Shown in pieces: positions 33,800-59,263 of a stretch of DNA of 64,000 nt. Every line of letters starts with the position of its first letter. The stretch's first letter is position 1. Source of the stretch: Sporosarcina sp. (GTDB taxonomy: Bacteria > Bacillota > Bacilli > Bacillales_A > Planococcaceae); the NCBI RefSeq assembly GCF_029257255.1, contig NZ_JARICI010000015.1:1-64000 (forward strand), read 5' to 3'. The notes beneath the pieces are model-generated. The model was not told the DNA's origin and did no database searches. It was given only the letters and a program-made list of their open reading frames with translations. Made by a program: the position numbers and the translations under genes.

Positions 33800-34047
33800 A
33801 GTAATAAAACAACGGCCGTGAAGGAAAGAGTATTTTTGCCGCGATTTTCCCAGAGAGCTTGTACAAGGTGTGAACAAGCAAAATCGCCCAAAAGGAATGG
33901 GATCCTGAGCCTGATGGATGAACACAAGTACTCCATCACGTTTTCCACGTTACGGAACAGAGTGGCTTTTTTCAAAAGCAATTCGGGTGGTACCACGGTT
34001 CCCAACATCAATCGTCCCTATATCCAGGGAGGACTGATGTTTTTTTA
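33800..34047 (+). promoter_or_regulatory. T-box leader RNA, predicted tRNA-Trp responsive (specifier TGG)
   Basis: GAAGGAAAGAGTA 5' part, CCAGAGAGCTTG stem I bulge, AAAGGAATGGGATCCTGAG specifier region, T-box core GGGTGGTACCACGG (33985-33998), terminator CATCAATCGTCCCT...AGGGAGGACTGATGTTTTTTT. Confidence 0.92.
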
Positions 34048-34104
34048 TGCAGTTTTTTAGGTGAGTGGGTCTTAAGGCAGGTTTGGATTGATTATTATCC
34101 AGTT

Positions 34105-34203
34105 TGGGATTTAAAGCAAAGATGTGCTCATAACGCTTCGCTTTTAATCGCAGAAGTAATTGCTATTCCCGCAGGAGTCGCCCCACCCTCCGCTTCAATC
34201 CTA
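34105..34203 (-). repeat. Long-hairpin repeat copy C, partial, subtype with GCGATTAAAAGCGAAGCG arm
   Basis: Reverse complement reads GGATTGAAGCGGAGGGTGGGGCGACTCCTGCGGGAATAGCAATTACTTCTGCGATTAAAAGCGAAGCG. Confidence 0.8.
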
Positions 34204-34243
34204 GGTTTTGTTGTGGAAGGATGCAATAAGACCACTGAAGCTT

Positions 34244-34302
34244 TCTAACATCTGTGAAGTTTTGTAGATCACATAGTATATAAAGTATTCATGTCTCATT
34301 TG
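34244..34302 (-). repeat. Module M, copy 1
   Basis: Reverse complement CAAATGAGACATGAATACTTTATATACTATGTGATCTACAAAACTTCACAGATGTTAGA matches copies at 41968, 47501 and 58860. Confidence 0.88.
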
Positions 34303-34458
34303 CATATTTTAAATCCAAAAGGTAACTTGTTTGCAGTCTTGAATCATATCGATGCAAGTTTGTATTGATTTGGAACTTCTAACAGTATCTTTAGAATCAA
34401 AATTTATTTGCATAATAACTACAACGAACTCAACAAAGTATTTCACCACAAAAAATTA

Positions 34459-34586
34459 GGGATTGAAGCGGAAGACGGTCGACTCCGGGAGGATCAGGTC
34501 GACAGGTAAGACGACTTTGGGGAGCTCACGACCAAGTCGGCTTACCGCGGGCCCTCCGGAAAGCGTACCGTCTGAAGCGAAAATCA
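34459..34586 (+). repeat. Long-hairpin repeat copy D, upstream of trpS
   Basis: GGGATTGAAGCGGAAGACGGTCGACTCCGGGAGGATCAGGTCGACAGGTAAGACGACTT...AAGTCGGCTTACCGCGGGCCCTCCGGAAAGCGTACCGTCTGAAGCGAAAATC. Confidence 0.92.
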
Positions 34587-34620
34587 CCATGCCCAAAACC
34601 TTATATGCATACATTTTTAA

Positions 34621-35809
<1,189 letters not shown>

Positions 35810-41390: not shown

Positions 41391-41440
41391 TTTCCTTCTT
41401 TAAAGTTGTTGGAATTAGTAAGTTAATAGAAGTTGCGGTT
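41391..41440. repeat. Leader segment flanking hairpin copy E
   Basis: TTTCCTTCTTTAAAGTTGTTGGAATTAGTAAGTTAATAGAAGTTGC, near-identical to 41707-41756 and 47164-47213. Confidence 0.85.
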
Positions 41441-41441
41441 T

Positions 41442-41572
41442 GGGGATTTTCGCTTCAGACGGTACGCTTTCCGGAGGGCCCGCGGTAAGCCGACTTGGTC
41501 GCAAGCTCCCCAAAGTCGTCTTACCTGTTGGGCTGATCCTCCCGGAGTCGACCGTCTTACGCTTCAATCCCT
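41442..41572 (-). repeat. Long-hairpin repeat copy E
   Basis: GGGGATTTTCGCTTCAGACGGTACGCTTTCCGGAGGGCCCGCGGTAAGCCGACTTGG...CCAAAGTCGTCTTACC...GACCGTCTTACGCTTCAATCCCT. Confidence 0.92.
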
Positions 41573-41706
41573 AGTTTTTGTGGTGAAGTAGGGAGTGTGG
41601 TTCATTGTAGGCAATAAGCTGATAGACTCTCAATTCGAAACAGTCGTTCAAAACCAATGTCAAGACATACTAACTTTTAGACCAAGCGAATAGAGTAGGT
41701 TTGGCA

Positions 41707-41756
41707 TTTCCTTTTTAAAGTTGTTGGAATTAGTAAGTTGATAGAAGTTGCTGTTT
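41707..41756. repeat. Leader segment flanking hairpin copy F
   Basis: TTTCCTTTTTAAAGTTGTTGGAATTAGTAAGTTGATAGAAGTTGC. Confidence 0.85.
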
Positions 41757-41816
41757 GGGGATTTTCACTTCAGACGGTACGCTTTCCGGAGTCGACCGCC
41801 TTACGCTTCAATCCCT
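41757..41816 (-). repeat. Long-hairpin repeat copy F, internally deleted
   Basis: GGGGATTTTCACTTCAGACGGTACGCTTTCCGGAGTCGACCGCCTTACGCTTCAATCCCT; both ends present, apical arm missing. Confidence 0.88.
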
Positions 41817-41967
41817 AGTTAGAGTAGTGAAGTTAGAATGTATTGTTTCCTATCGTAAATAAGCTGACAGTGTTTTGTTTTAAAAAGCAGTTCAATGCTG
41901 AAAACATCAAGCAGTTCATTTAATCAAAGACTTGATCTCAAACTCCATACCGTCTTTCAGATATTGC

Positions 41968-42025
41968 CAATGAGACATGAACACTTTATATACTATGTAA
42001 TCCACAAAACTTCCCAGATGTTAGA
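41968..42025 (+). repeat. Module M, copy 2
   Basis: CAATGAGACATGAACACTTTATATACTATGTAATCCACAAAACTTCCCAGATGTTAGA. Confidence 0.9.
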
Positions 42026-42066
42026 TAATTGCAGTGACCTTACTGCATCTATTCACAACAAACGTA

Positions 42067-42194
42067 GGATTGAAGCGGAGGGTGGGGCGACTCCCGGAGG
42101 ATCAGCGTGAGTCTAAGACCCTGGACTGAGCGTAGCGAGGGAAGCGGCTTAGGCCACGCCCTCGGGAAAGCGCCCCAAGCCGAAGCGAAATCCC
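42067..42194 (+). repeat. Long-hairpin repeat copy G
   Basis: GGATTGAAGCGGAGGGTGGGGCGACTCCCGGAGGATCAGCGTGAGTCTAAG...CTTAGGCCACGCCCTCGGGAAAGCGCCCC...GAAGCGAAATCCC. Confidence 0.9.
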
Positions 42195-42235
42195 ACGACC
42201 AACAACAAGTAATCTTTCAACTCCTTTGAATACAA

Positions 42236-46983: not shown

Positions 46984-47035
46984 GGGGATTTTCGCTTCAG
47001 ACGGTACGCTTTCCGGAGGGGCCGCTTCAATCCCT
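46984..47035 (-). repeat. Long-hairpin repeat copy H, internally deleted
   Basis: GGGGATTTTCGCTTCAGACGGTACGCTTTCCGGAGGGGCCGCTTCAATCCCT. Confidence 0.85.
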
Positions 47036-47163
47036 AGTTTGAGTGGTAAAGTAGTAAGTGTAGTTCTTTGTAGATCATAAGCTGACAGTGTTTCATAAAA
47101 AAAGCAGTTCAAATTCAAAACTAAGAAAATTACTGACTTAGCCATTAGCCACAAAGTATGATA

Positions 47164-47214: not shown

Positions 47215-47343
47215 GGGATTTTCGCTTCAGACGGTACGCTTTCCGGAGGGCGGGCGGTGAACCACACCCCTCGCTTCGCTCGCCGGGTGTTTCACCTGTC
47301 CCGCTGATCCTCCCGGAGTCGACCGTCTTCCGCTTCAATCCCT
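47215..47343 (-). repeat. Long-hairpin repeat copy I
   Basis: Reverse complement GGGATTGAAGCGGAAGACGGTCGACTCCGGGAGGATCAGCGGGACAGGTGAAACACCC...GGGTGTGGTTCACCGCCCGCCCTCCGGAAAGCGTACCGTC. Confidence 0.92.
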
Positions 47344-47500
47344 AGTTTGAGTGGCGAAGTGCGATGTGCTGGTTATTGTATCTAATAAGCTGACATTGTT
47401 TAAATTTTAAAAAATAGCTCAAATTCAAAACCAGAAAAATTCTGGTGGTGCTATGAAACAAATTCTGGATATCAAACTTCATACCATCTTTTAAACCAAG

Positions 47501-47559
47501 CCAGTAAGACATGAACACTTTATATACTACTTGAAAATCAAAGCTTCACAGATCGTAGA
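47501..47559 (+). repeat. Module M, copy 3
   Basis: CCAGTAAGACATGAACACTTTATATACTACTTGAAAATCAAAGCTTCACAGATCGTAGA. Confidence 0.88.
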
Positions 47560-47601
47560 CAGCTTCAATCAACTTACTACATCCCTTCACAACAAAACAT
47601 A

Positions 47602-47769
47602 GGATTGAAGCGGAGGATGGGACGAAATGCAAAGATGTGCTCCCAACGCTTCGCTTTTGCTGTGGGAATAGCAATTACTTCTGCGATTAATAGCGAAGCG
47701 TTATGAGCATGAGCTGGAGACCTGGCAAAGATGCCCCCGGAAAGCGCCCCATCCCGCAACGAAAATCCC
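47602..47769 (+). repeat. Long-hairpin repeat copy J, subtype with duplicated snap-back arm
   Basis: GGATTGAAGCGGAGGATGGGACG...GTGCTCCCAACGCTTCGCTTTT...AATAGCGAAGCGTTATGAGC...CCCCGGAAAGCGCCCCATCC. Confidence 0.85.
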
Positions 47770-47816
47770 ATGACCCACACTAATTTTCTTCTTTTAAAAC
47801 CGAGCCAACCCCAAAC

Positions 47817-47943
47817 ACAAAAAGAGGAAAGAGGAAAGAATGTTTACTATTCCCTCCCCTTCTAATTCACTCATCTTCATCCAGAAAAAAATCAGGATCT
47901 TTCTGCTTGCGGGCGAATACGAATACGGGGACTGCAAACTACG
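47817..47943 (-). pseudogene. Truncated duplicate of the 42-aa small membrane protein gene and its terminator
   Basis: Minus strand ...PVFVFARKQKDPDFFLDEDE*, matching VSVFVSARKQKDPAFFLDEDE* at 48363-48491; 3' flank also duplicated. Confidence 0.75.
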
Positions 47944-48151
47944 GCTATCCTAAAGGCTTAGTGAAACTTTGGTTTCCAGTCTCAGATCTACGTTTCAATC
48001 ACTATATTCCCTCGCTGAACAGGGTACAATTTATTATTGCTGAAGATAACTTTTTTGGTACTTTAAACCACAATACTTTTTCTGTTGAATAACATTATAT
48101 CTTGCAGCTGGAACATCTACGTAAAAGATTTAAAAACCAAGCTAGTGTACC

Positions 48152-48268
48152 GTAGCGGAAGGCGGCGACTCGGGGAGGATCAGCCCGACAGGTGAGACGA
48201 CTTGCGGGAGCAAAGCGACCAAGTCGGCTCACCGCGGGCCCTCCCGAACGCGTCCGCCTGAAGTGCAG
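48152..48268 (+). repeat. Long-hairpin repeat copy X
   Basis: GTAGCGGAAGGCGGCGACTCGGGGAGGATCAGCCCGACAGGTGAGACGACTTG...CAAGTCGGCTCACCGCGGGCCCTCCCGAACGCGTCCGCCTGAAGTGC. Confidence 0.9.
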
Positions 48269-48362
48269 GGAAACGGTCTTCCCTCTACACACAAATTCCA
48301 AAGCACAAAAAAGAGGAAAGAATGTTTACCATTCCTCCCCCTGCTTAAAAGCTAATACCTAT

Positions 48363-48491
48363 TCACTCATCTTCATCCAGAAAAAATGCTGGATCCTTCT
48401 GCTTGCGGGCGCTTACGAAAACGGAAACTGCAAACAGCGCCATCAGCAAAAGGACCACCAGTAAAAAGATCCATCCGGTTTGACTTGCCAT
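48363..48491 (-). CDS. Small single-pass membrane protein, 42 aa
   Basis: MASQTGWIFLLVVLLLMALFAVSVFVSARKQKDPAFFLDEDE*; RBS GAGGAGGGCTGCAG before ATG at 48491; below the track's length cutoff. Confidence 0.75.
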   Translation of the reverse strand: MASQTGWIFLLVVLLLMALFAVSVFVSARKQKDPAFFLDEDE

Positions 48492-58310: not shown

Positions 58311-58355
58311 GTTGGTTTTGCTCCTTTCTTTGTACAATTGAATTTGTATGTAGTT

Positions 58356-58484
58356 GGGGATTTTCGCTCCGGGCAGACGCTTTCCGCGGGGCATGGCTTG
58401 AGCCTCCTCGTCCGCTACGCTACCTGCGGGGTCTCAAGGCTCATGCTATTCCCGCAGGAGTCGCCGCCCTGCGCTCCAATCCCT
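58356..58484 (-). repeat. Long-hairpin repeat copy L, upstream of addB
   Basis: GGGGATTTTCGCTCCGGGCAGACGCTTTCCGCGGGGCATGGCTTGAGCC...GGTCTCAAGGCTCATGC...CCCGCAGGAGTCGCCGCCCTGCGCTCCAATCCCT. Confidence 0.9.
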
Positions 58485-58859
58485 AAATAGTAAGCTAAAT
58501 GAATAAGAGTTAGCTTTTCAATTATACCTCTTAAGTTCTTCGGTACTTTGTCTTGTGTAAAAAACAACTGTATGTATAATTTATACAGTTCTATTTTATA
58601 TTAAAATGAGTTCTAGTTCTTTGAAAGCAAGCTTAGTATTGTAACCTCATACTTAGCTTTTAAGCCCACAATAAATTTCCAGTTCATAGGTATTGTGCCA
58701 GTGAAAATGCTATTTGTTTAAATGTAGTTTGGTGTCACTAATATGCAGATAGCGTCTTGATCCCAAAACATTGGTGCAAAGTTCAAAACCATGAATATTA
58801 ATAACTTAGCAATAAACAAAAGACTAAAATCAAACTCAATATCCTCTTTTAACCCAAGC

Positions 58860-58918
58860 CAATGAGACATAAATACTTTATATACTCCGTGATCCACAAA
58901 GCTTCCCAGATGTTAGAA
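58860..58918 (+). repeat. Module M, copy 4
   Basis: CAATGAGACATAAATACTTTATATACTCCGTGATCCACAAAGCTTCCCAGATGTTAGAA. Confidence 0.9.
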
Positions 58919-58959
58919 GGCTTTAGCGTCCTTACTATATCAATTCGTAACAAAAAGTA

Positions 58960-59168
58960 GGATTGAAGCGGAGGGTCGGGCGACTCCTGCGGGAATAGCA
59001 ATTACTTCTGCGATTAAAGGCGAAGCGTTATGAGCATGAGTCTGGAGACCCCGCAAAGATGCCTTAATTTCTGTAAAGAGCACAGAAATACGGCAAATCG
59101 AACACTTCGCAGTTCGATTGGCAGAAGCCACGCCCGCGGAAAGCGTCCCCACCTGTAGCGGAAATCCC
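58960..59168 (+). repeat. Long-hairpin repeat copy K, with internal insertion
   Basis: GGATTGAAGCGGAGGGTCGGGCGACTCCTGCGGGAATAGC...CCCGCGGAAAGCGTCCCC...GCGGAAATCCC; extra mini-hairpins TTTCTGT/ACAGAAA and ATCGAAC/GTTCGAT. Confidence 0.85.
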
Positions 59169-59263
59169 AAACTGCCCACTAACTAGTCTTGCATTCAACA
59201 CAAAAAAATCCCGCCACACCGTTTCTTTCATTGTACCGAAAGAGTGGTGAGACAGGAAATTTT

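Follow-up and report, generated by a model that had tools for sequence, protein, structure and literature searches.

Among the described repeat systems closest to the element analysed here are the GTAG-tagged REPs, which are mobilized, along with their head-to-head and tail-to-tail dimers (BIMEs), by RAYTs (PMC2817692, PMC3733652); GTAG repeats have been listed in Proteobacteria, Cyanobacteria, Chloroflexi and PVC, not in Firmicutes (PMC3733652). The BOX repeat of Streptococcus pneumoniae, boxA-(boxB)n-boxC, keeps a single orientation; its end modules are fixed and its inner modules vary in number, and one has been described beside T-box riboswitches (PMC3049150). The Bacillus repeats bcr1 (B. 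cereus group) and Bhal-1/2 (B. halodurans) are MITE-like, and bcr1 has been described as showing characteristics of a mobile element (PMC2267715, PMC3733652). Finally, TIR repeats are known from TIRtrons, the TIR-associated tyrosine transposases (PMC3733652).

We have analysed a stretch of 64,000 nt from a contig of Sporosarcina sp., a genus of soil bacteria; this whole stretch is referred to as the window. It holds four elements (E1 to E4), each with a copy of a segment termed module M. This segment is real, conserved and non-coding; it forms the inner flank in one of the two halves of an interspersed, paired-hairpin repeat of a REP/BIME/MITE-like kind. The element resembles REPs and BIMEs in consisting of intergenic palindromes with many copies per genome, and in forming tandem arrays and inverted dimers with a conserved or variable spacer; one foot is GTAG, as in REPs, in 20 of 30 R units. 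However, its hairpins measure 100–200 nt and have replaceable inner cassettes, whereas REP palindromes measure 20–40 nt; the feet of the L-type units in Sporosarcina are not GTAG, the spacer is 160–480 nt, and no linked RAYT with the same repeats was found at 17 Y1_Tnp loci. With BOX (PMC3049150) it has in common a modular intergenic organization, a variable number of modules and stable hairpins but, compared by description rather than by sequence, it differs in being built from two inverted hairpin half-units, each of which can be amplified whole. Likewise, bcr1 and Bhal-1/2 are non-coding stem-loop repeats in Bacillales, yet by their descriptions they are set apart as single units of about 74–167 bp with no evidence of L and R half-units. 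Longer, partly self-complementary inverted repeats, dispersed families and dimers are also found among TIR repeats and TIRtrons, but no tyrosine transposase was found between the present hairpins in the genomes tested. The features of a MITE that were observed are multiple copies, terminal inverted repeats, a module M without coding signal and empty sites. Literature searches by hairpin sequence and by name returned unrelated matches or general families only.

Module M and the paired half-units

The four copies of M, reported earlier as a conserved sequence lying between paired hairpins, were all recovered with an offset of at most 1 nt (Table 1). BLASTN matches of the copy at 41968–42066 to the other three had E values ranging from 3e-23 to 2e-9, and a 34-base core pattern, allowing up to three mismatches, had 0 occurrences in 100 shuffles. 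The absence of gaps claimed for the four copies held with a single exception, an A in the A-run of the 41968 copy, immediately ahead of its hairpin (AAAC vs AAAAC). When the module was looked for in the host genome and its relatives, as the earlier note had proposed, 14 copies were found in total: six in the host (four in a 25 kb section of this contig and a pair in a 13 kb section of another), with another eight in S. cascadiensis, the sister species. Among 36 other genomes of the genus, the one with M was Sporosarcina cascadiensis A4, with its eight matches in corresponding regions and one additional place; the remaining near relatives matched just the hairpin arm and the final bases preceding it. 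The core of M reads TTTATATACTA...CTTCnnAGATnTTAGA, of which TTTATATACTA is nearly invariant across the 14 copies. Every one of these copies adjoins an R-type hairpin arm, always of the GTAGGATTGAAGCGG type, in agreement with the claim that M runs into the hairpin. Searches of M against Rfam, phages, plasmids and viral contigs gave no match, and M did not turn out to belong to any known gene or IS end. At Rfam gathering scores the window contained only a T-box and tRNA, and no family covered the element.

We conclude that M is probably the inner flank, or subterminal segment, of the R half-unit in a composite Sporosarcina element that is palindromic, interspersed and non-coding. A half-unit comprises a flank of approximately 45–110 nt and a large, imperfect, GC-rich hairpin, which are usually joined by a GTAG-like foot (GTA|GGATTGAAGCGG). 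An element has the form (L)n-(R)m, with at least one L and at least one R half-unit placed back to back so that the hairpins, which are inverted copies of each other, face outward. Two sequence-only models were built, R1 from 32 sequences of R flank plus arm and R2 from 16 sequences of L flank plus arm, and their mapping revealed that L and R half-units diverge in pairs, R occurring singly or in tandem up to four times and L up to twice. Thus E2 and E3 are L-L-R, while the loci at 2803 kb of genome G030 and 2702 kb of G071 are R-R-R-R-L and R-R-L, respectively. A divergent L partner lay near 10 of the 10 best R matches in the complete genome G018 and near about 9 of 14 R loci in G030, as counted from tables. 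The foot was GTAG in 20 of 30 R units and TAGG or AAGG in L units. The hairpin alone is also dispersed, with 52 matches in the host genome for each of one L and one R hairpin query.

Table 1. Positions in the window of module M, the L and R hairpins, and the trpS region (BLASTN query, 41968–42066)
Feature	Position	Strand	Evidence
T-box leader of trpS	33809..34022	+	Rfam RF00230, E 5.6e-27
R hairpin of E1, truncated inside	34100..34201	-	duplex search: no well-paired outer arm found
Module M of E1	34203..34313, core 34244-34302	-	BLASTN 85% to 41968 copy (34300-34207, minus; 94 nt); nhmmer E 1e-38
L hairpin of E1	34460..34590	+	R2 match 34401-34495; arms pair
trpS, encoding tryptophanyl-tRNA synthetase; lies downstream of both E1 and the T-box	34648..35634	+	Pfam PF00579, E 4e-78
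L hairpin of E2, outer, complete	41440..41570	-	R2 match 41535-41628; DNA fold z = -4.66
L hairpin of E2, second in tandem, shortened	41755..41814	-	R2 match 41783-41871; repeat families D2, D3
Module M of E2 (segment of the earlier note)	41954..42062, core 41968-42025	+	BLASTN, nhmmer
R hairpin of E2, directly 3' of M	42067..42197	+	R1 match 42010-42102; DNA fold z = -2.37
L hairpin at the left end of E3, truncated; L half-unit in tandem	46984..47033	-	R2 match 47021-47089
L hairpin of E3	47215..47341	-	R2 match 47306-47397
Module M of E3 (most diverged of the four)	47488..47597	+	BLASTN 77% (47507-47596; 92 nt); nhmmer E 3e-33
R hairpin of E3	47602..47771	+	R1 match 47544-47625; arms pair
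L hairpin of E4	58353..58482	-	R2 match 58450-58539
Module M of E4	58846..58955	+	BLASTN 90% over 58 nt (58860-58917); nhmmer E 2e-37
R hairpin of E4	58960..59170	+	R1 match 58902-58994; arms pair

The pairing of the hairpins is maintained, as their arms covary strongly. When 22 distinct arm pairs, drawn from several subfamilies, were compared, 82% of cells were paired, 36 cells had changed on both sides (shuffled mean 8.8; slid controls 1–8) and the covariation score was 0.231 vs 0.088. DNA folds of two hairpins from the window and one from a relative had z values of -2.4 to -4.7. That the inner cassettes are replaceable is seen in the L hairpin of S. cascadiensis E1, which contains an extra stem. 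Pairing of the L and R flanks specific to each element was also considered and was rejected, within-element duplex energies being no different from cross-element energies.

Two further observations concern the hairpins. A direct repeat in the window (47828–47950 and 48310–48440; 88–89% alike in two blocks) surrounds approximately 380 bp holding a solo L-type hairpin at about 48139–48263, and S. cascadiensis appears to have a single copy of this repeat. In host contigs C14, C32, C37 and C69, hairpin copies lie about 100 bases from the contig ends (near base 100–200), so that the assembly is probably interrupted by the repeats and their copy number underestimated.

Spread, flank variation and insertion sites

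The R1 model matched 48 of 61 Sporosarcina genomes, with up to 69 matches per genome and 20–69 in most of the nearest clade; elsewhere in the order the matches were weak only. Half-units, ends and subfamilies are now defined for this hairpin repeat family, which is in at least 48 of the 61 genomes and not in Rfam. Several near relatives have an R flank with the sequence ...CACACTATCTACAGTGATTGACCTACGTACCTCCACTATCAACGTAGGATTGAAGCGGAAGCTGGGGCGACTCC, and its final ~45 nt align with the tail of M (CAGTGA...CTACnTACCTnCAC), while no counterpart of the M core was found in the R flanks of near relatives. Since these relatives keep the plan and the tail without the core, M is a lineage-specific form of a more general flank. 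In the complete genome G030 the loci seem to be dense at 2.06–2.84 Mb and sparse at ~1.0–2.0 Mb.

In both the host and S. cascadiensis, E1 lies between the T-box and the ribosome-binding site of trpS. It is absent from 12 of the 14 closest genomes compared, that is, from all but the host and its sister, and a short gap separates T-box and ribosome-binding site there. As E1 falls within 33809–34647, a repeat of about 500 nt may lie in, and lengthen, the regulated 5' UTR of this T-box-controlled gene. The E3 position is a plain intergenic region of ~340 bp in G030, G018 and G071, and E1 and E3 thus represent insertion polymorphisms with empty sites in relatives. In the rraA-FeS intergenic region occupied by E2, G030 and G018 have an oppositely oriented element that belongs to another subfamily, and G071 has none. 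Opposite orientations were also found between 2746 kb of G030 and 2808 kb of G018, where flanks are collinear and hairpins similar while spacers are dissimilar, and at a third shared position, 69.7 kb in the host and 2707 kb in G071. No clean target-site duplication could be read, the flanks being too diverged; a TATGCA...TTTTT present on both sides of E1 is no more than suggestive.

Other repeats occupy some of the same intergenic regions in relatives, so these spots tolerate repeats. In S. cascadiensis another hairpin repeat family (CGCTTCGGCGCTGGGGGATTGCC...) is nested with the elements (L031 1986–2669, and L032 at the E3 position), and one 680 bp insertion has ACTAAAAAAAG on both sides. 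The addB-VTT and rraA-FeS intergenic regions of G071 (L237/L238) contain further families (GGCGCTGGCGGATGGCT... and AGCGCTCA-rich).

Conservation of the core and what it may reflect

Sliding identity across the four copies was 0.73–0.87 in M and about 0.4–0.6 in the rest of the spacer. Across the 14 copies from two species, identity was 0.83/0.81 in the core, 0.53 in the 36 nt tail by the hairpin, 0.47 upstream and 0.88 in the hairpin arm, the core differing from adjoining sequence with a permutation P value of 5e-5. The earlier view that M is far more conserved than the rest of the spacer is therefore upheld between copies, with the qualification that the conserved part is the core and not the whole 100 bp. 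It fails between orthologs. E1 provides one clear orthologous pair (host vs S. cascadiensis), in which identity is 93% in the core, 90% in the middle, 92% in the L flank and 66% in the tail; ordinary intergenic DNA of the same two genomes is 74–98% identical, and the core of E1 is no better conserved than this. For the same reason we withdrew a reading of strong purifying selection on E1, which had set its 90% identity against the 67% of trpS third positions. To judge from these alignments, constraint on the core shows among old copies and not between recent orthologs, and a binding role for M is accordingly one for which the comparison of copies is the sole basis.

It is unlikely, although several observations fit, that M has no function of its own and has been conserved through common descent and local exchange, by gene conversion within the two clusters. 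The copies are indeed clustered (4 in 25 kb and 2 in 13 kb), the orthologous core does not rise above ordinary intergenic DNA and the flanks of other species are unrelated over the core. However, the 36 nt tail, which separates the core from an equally conserved arm, is near-random (0.53 vs 0.83/0.81, P=5e-5), and this counts against conversion because simple conversion tracts would be expected to include the tail.

The suggestion that M is a functional part of the element stands in so far as M belongs to the element and has a core under greater constraint than the sequence at either side; the particular roles of RNA domain and promoter are not supported. A regulatory element or part of a non-coding RNA, with TATATACT as the -10 of a promoter from which the neighbouring hairpin is transcribed as a small RNA, would agree with the near invariance of TTTATATACTA in the 14 copies and with the stable folding and covarying arms of the hairpins. 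Against it, no sigma-70-like site is present at TATATACT, which lacks a -35 partner; the number of promoter-like sites equals that in shuffled sequences and none coincides with TATATACT; other species retain the hairpin with a different flank that lacks TATATACT; and M of E1 is directed away from trpS. Nor does M itself have an RNA fold, as there is no consensus structure and the single-strand fold has z = -0.27, and no Rfam family corresponds to it. We regard this explanation as quite improbable.

We consider it very unlikely that the element is an invertible switch, in which a spacer with M flips between inverted hairpins. The opposite orientations seen in different species at three shared intergenic positions are what such a switch would give, but they are explained equally well by independent insertion into tolerant sites, and no recombinase gene was identified. 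Between G030 and G018, moreover, whole hairpins are swapped and each still matches itself, a state that points to separate insertions more than to crossing-over between the hairpins, after which the outer arms would have stayed in place; the spacers are only ~45% alike, in an alignment read by eye. There is hardly any likelihood that M is a short gene or gene remnant, since although the frame ATGAGACATGAAYACTTTATATAC... (MRHEYFIYYVIHKTSQMLE...) is open for 31–46 codons in the four window copies (in E3 without ATG) and in several S. cascadiensis copies, the synonymous fraction of single-difference codons is 0.22 vs 0.18 expected with other frames as high, two S. cascadiensis copies have stops and the four copies of the second cluster have a 1 nt deletion, and the short ORF was rejected on this codon-position test and these frameshifted or stopped copies.

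Putative mobility and Y1 transposase loci

The best reading of these data is of a GTAG-tagged, REP/MITE-like, non-autonomous element in which M would be a lineage-specific subterminal recognition segment. A recognition site is a possible role for the M core, and the one that we prefer is that of a segment recognized by a protein during movement of the element. An enzyme acting in trans would insert the elements and would read both the hairpin, folded and single-stranded, and the adjacent flank, by analogy with the recognition of GTAG-tagged REPs by RAYTs (PMC2817692, PMC3733652); the M core would be the lineage-specific part of its site. Tandem half-units would arise through slippage or unequal exchange; a tandem duplication in G018 takes in neighbouring terminator-like DNA, as expected from such events. 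Less probably, the element may represent an undescribed class of Firmicute palindromic repeat, in which a large hairpin with a replaceable cassette is combined with a lineage-specific flank in a divergent (L)n-(R)m arrangement, in either orientation at shared positions, the hairpins being well conserved and the flanks unlike one another between lineages; such a class would imply a dedicated enzyme reading both hairpin and flank.

With two species that share M, many with other flanks, and empty sites at trpS, the elements offer a comparative system for finding the mover and, should it be found, the M core would be the first place to test its specificity. No mobilizing enzyme was found among 17 Y1-transposase loci in 11 genomes (2 in the host and 15 in ten relatives). 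RAYT/IS200 proteins were rejected as the mover, as these loci are without half-units on both sides; at one, an IS200-like gene, a hairpin relic is present on one side only. Host contig C50 (L133 1250–2130) contains a RAYT-like Y1 transposase gene (211 aa) that is situated between inverted short repeats, GGTGCCTGTGTGCCAC and GTGTGGCGCACAGGCACC, which are apparently that gene's own REP family.
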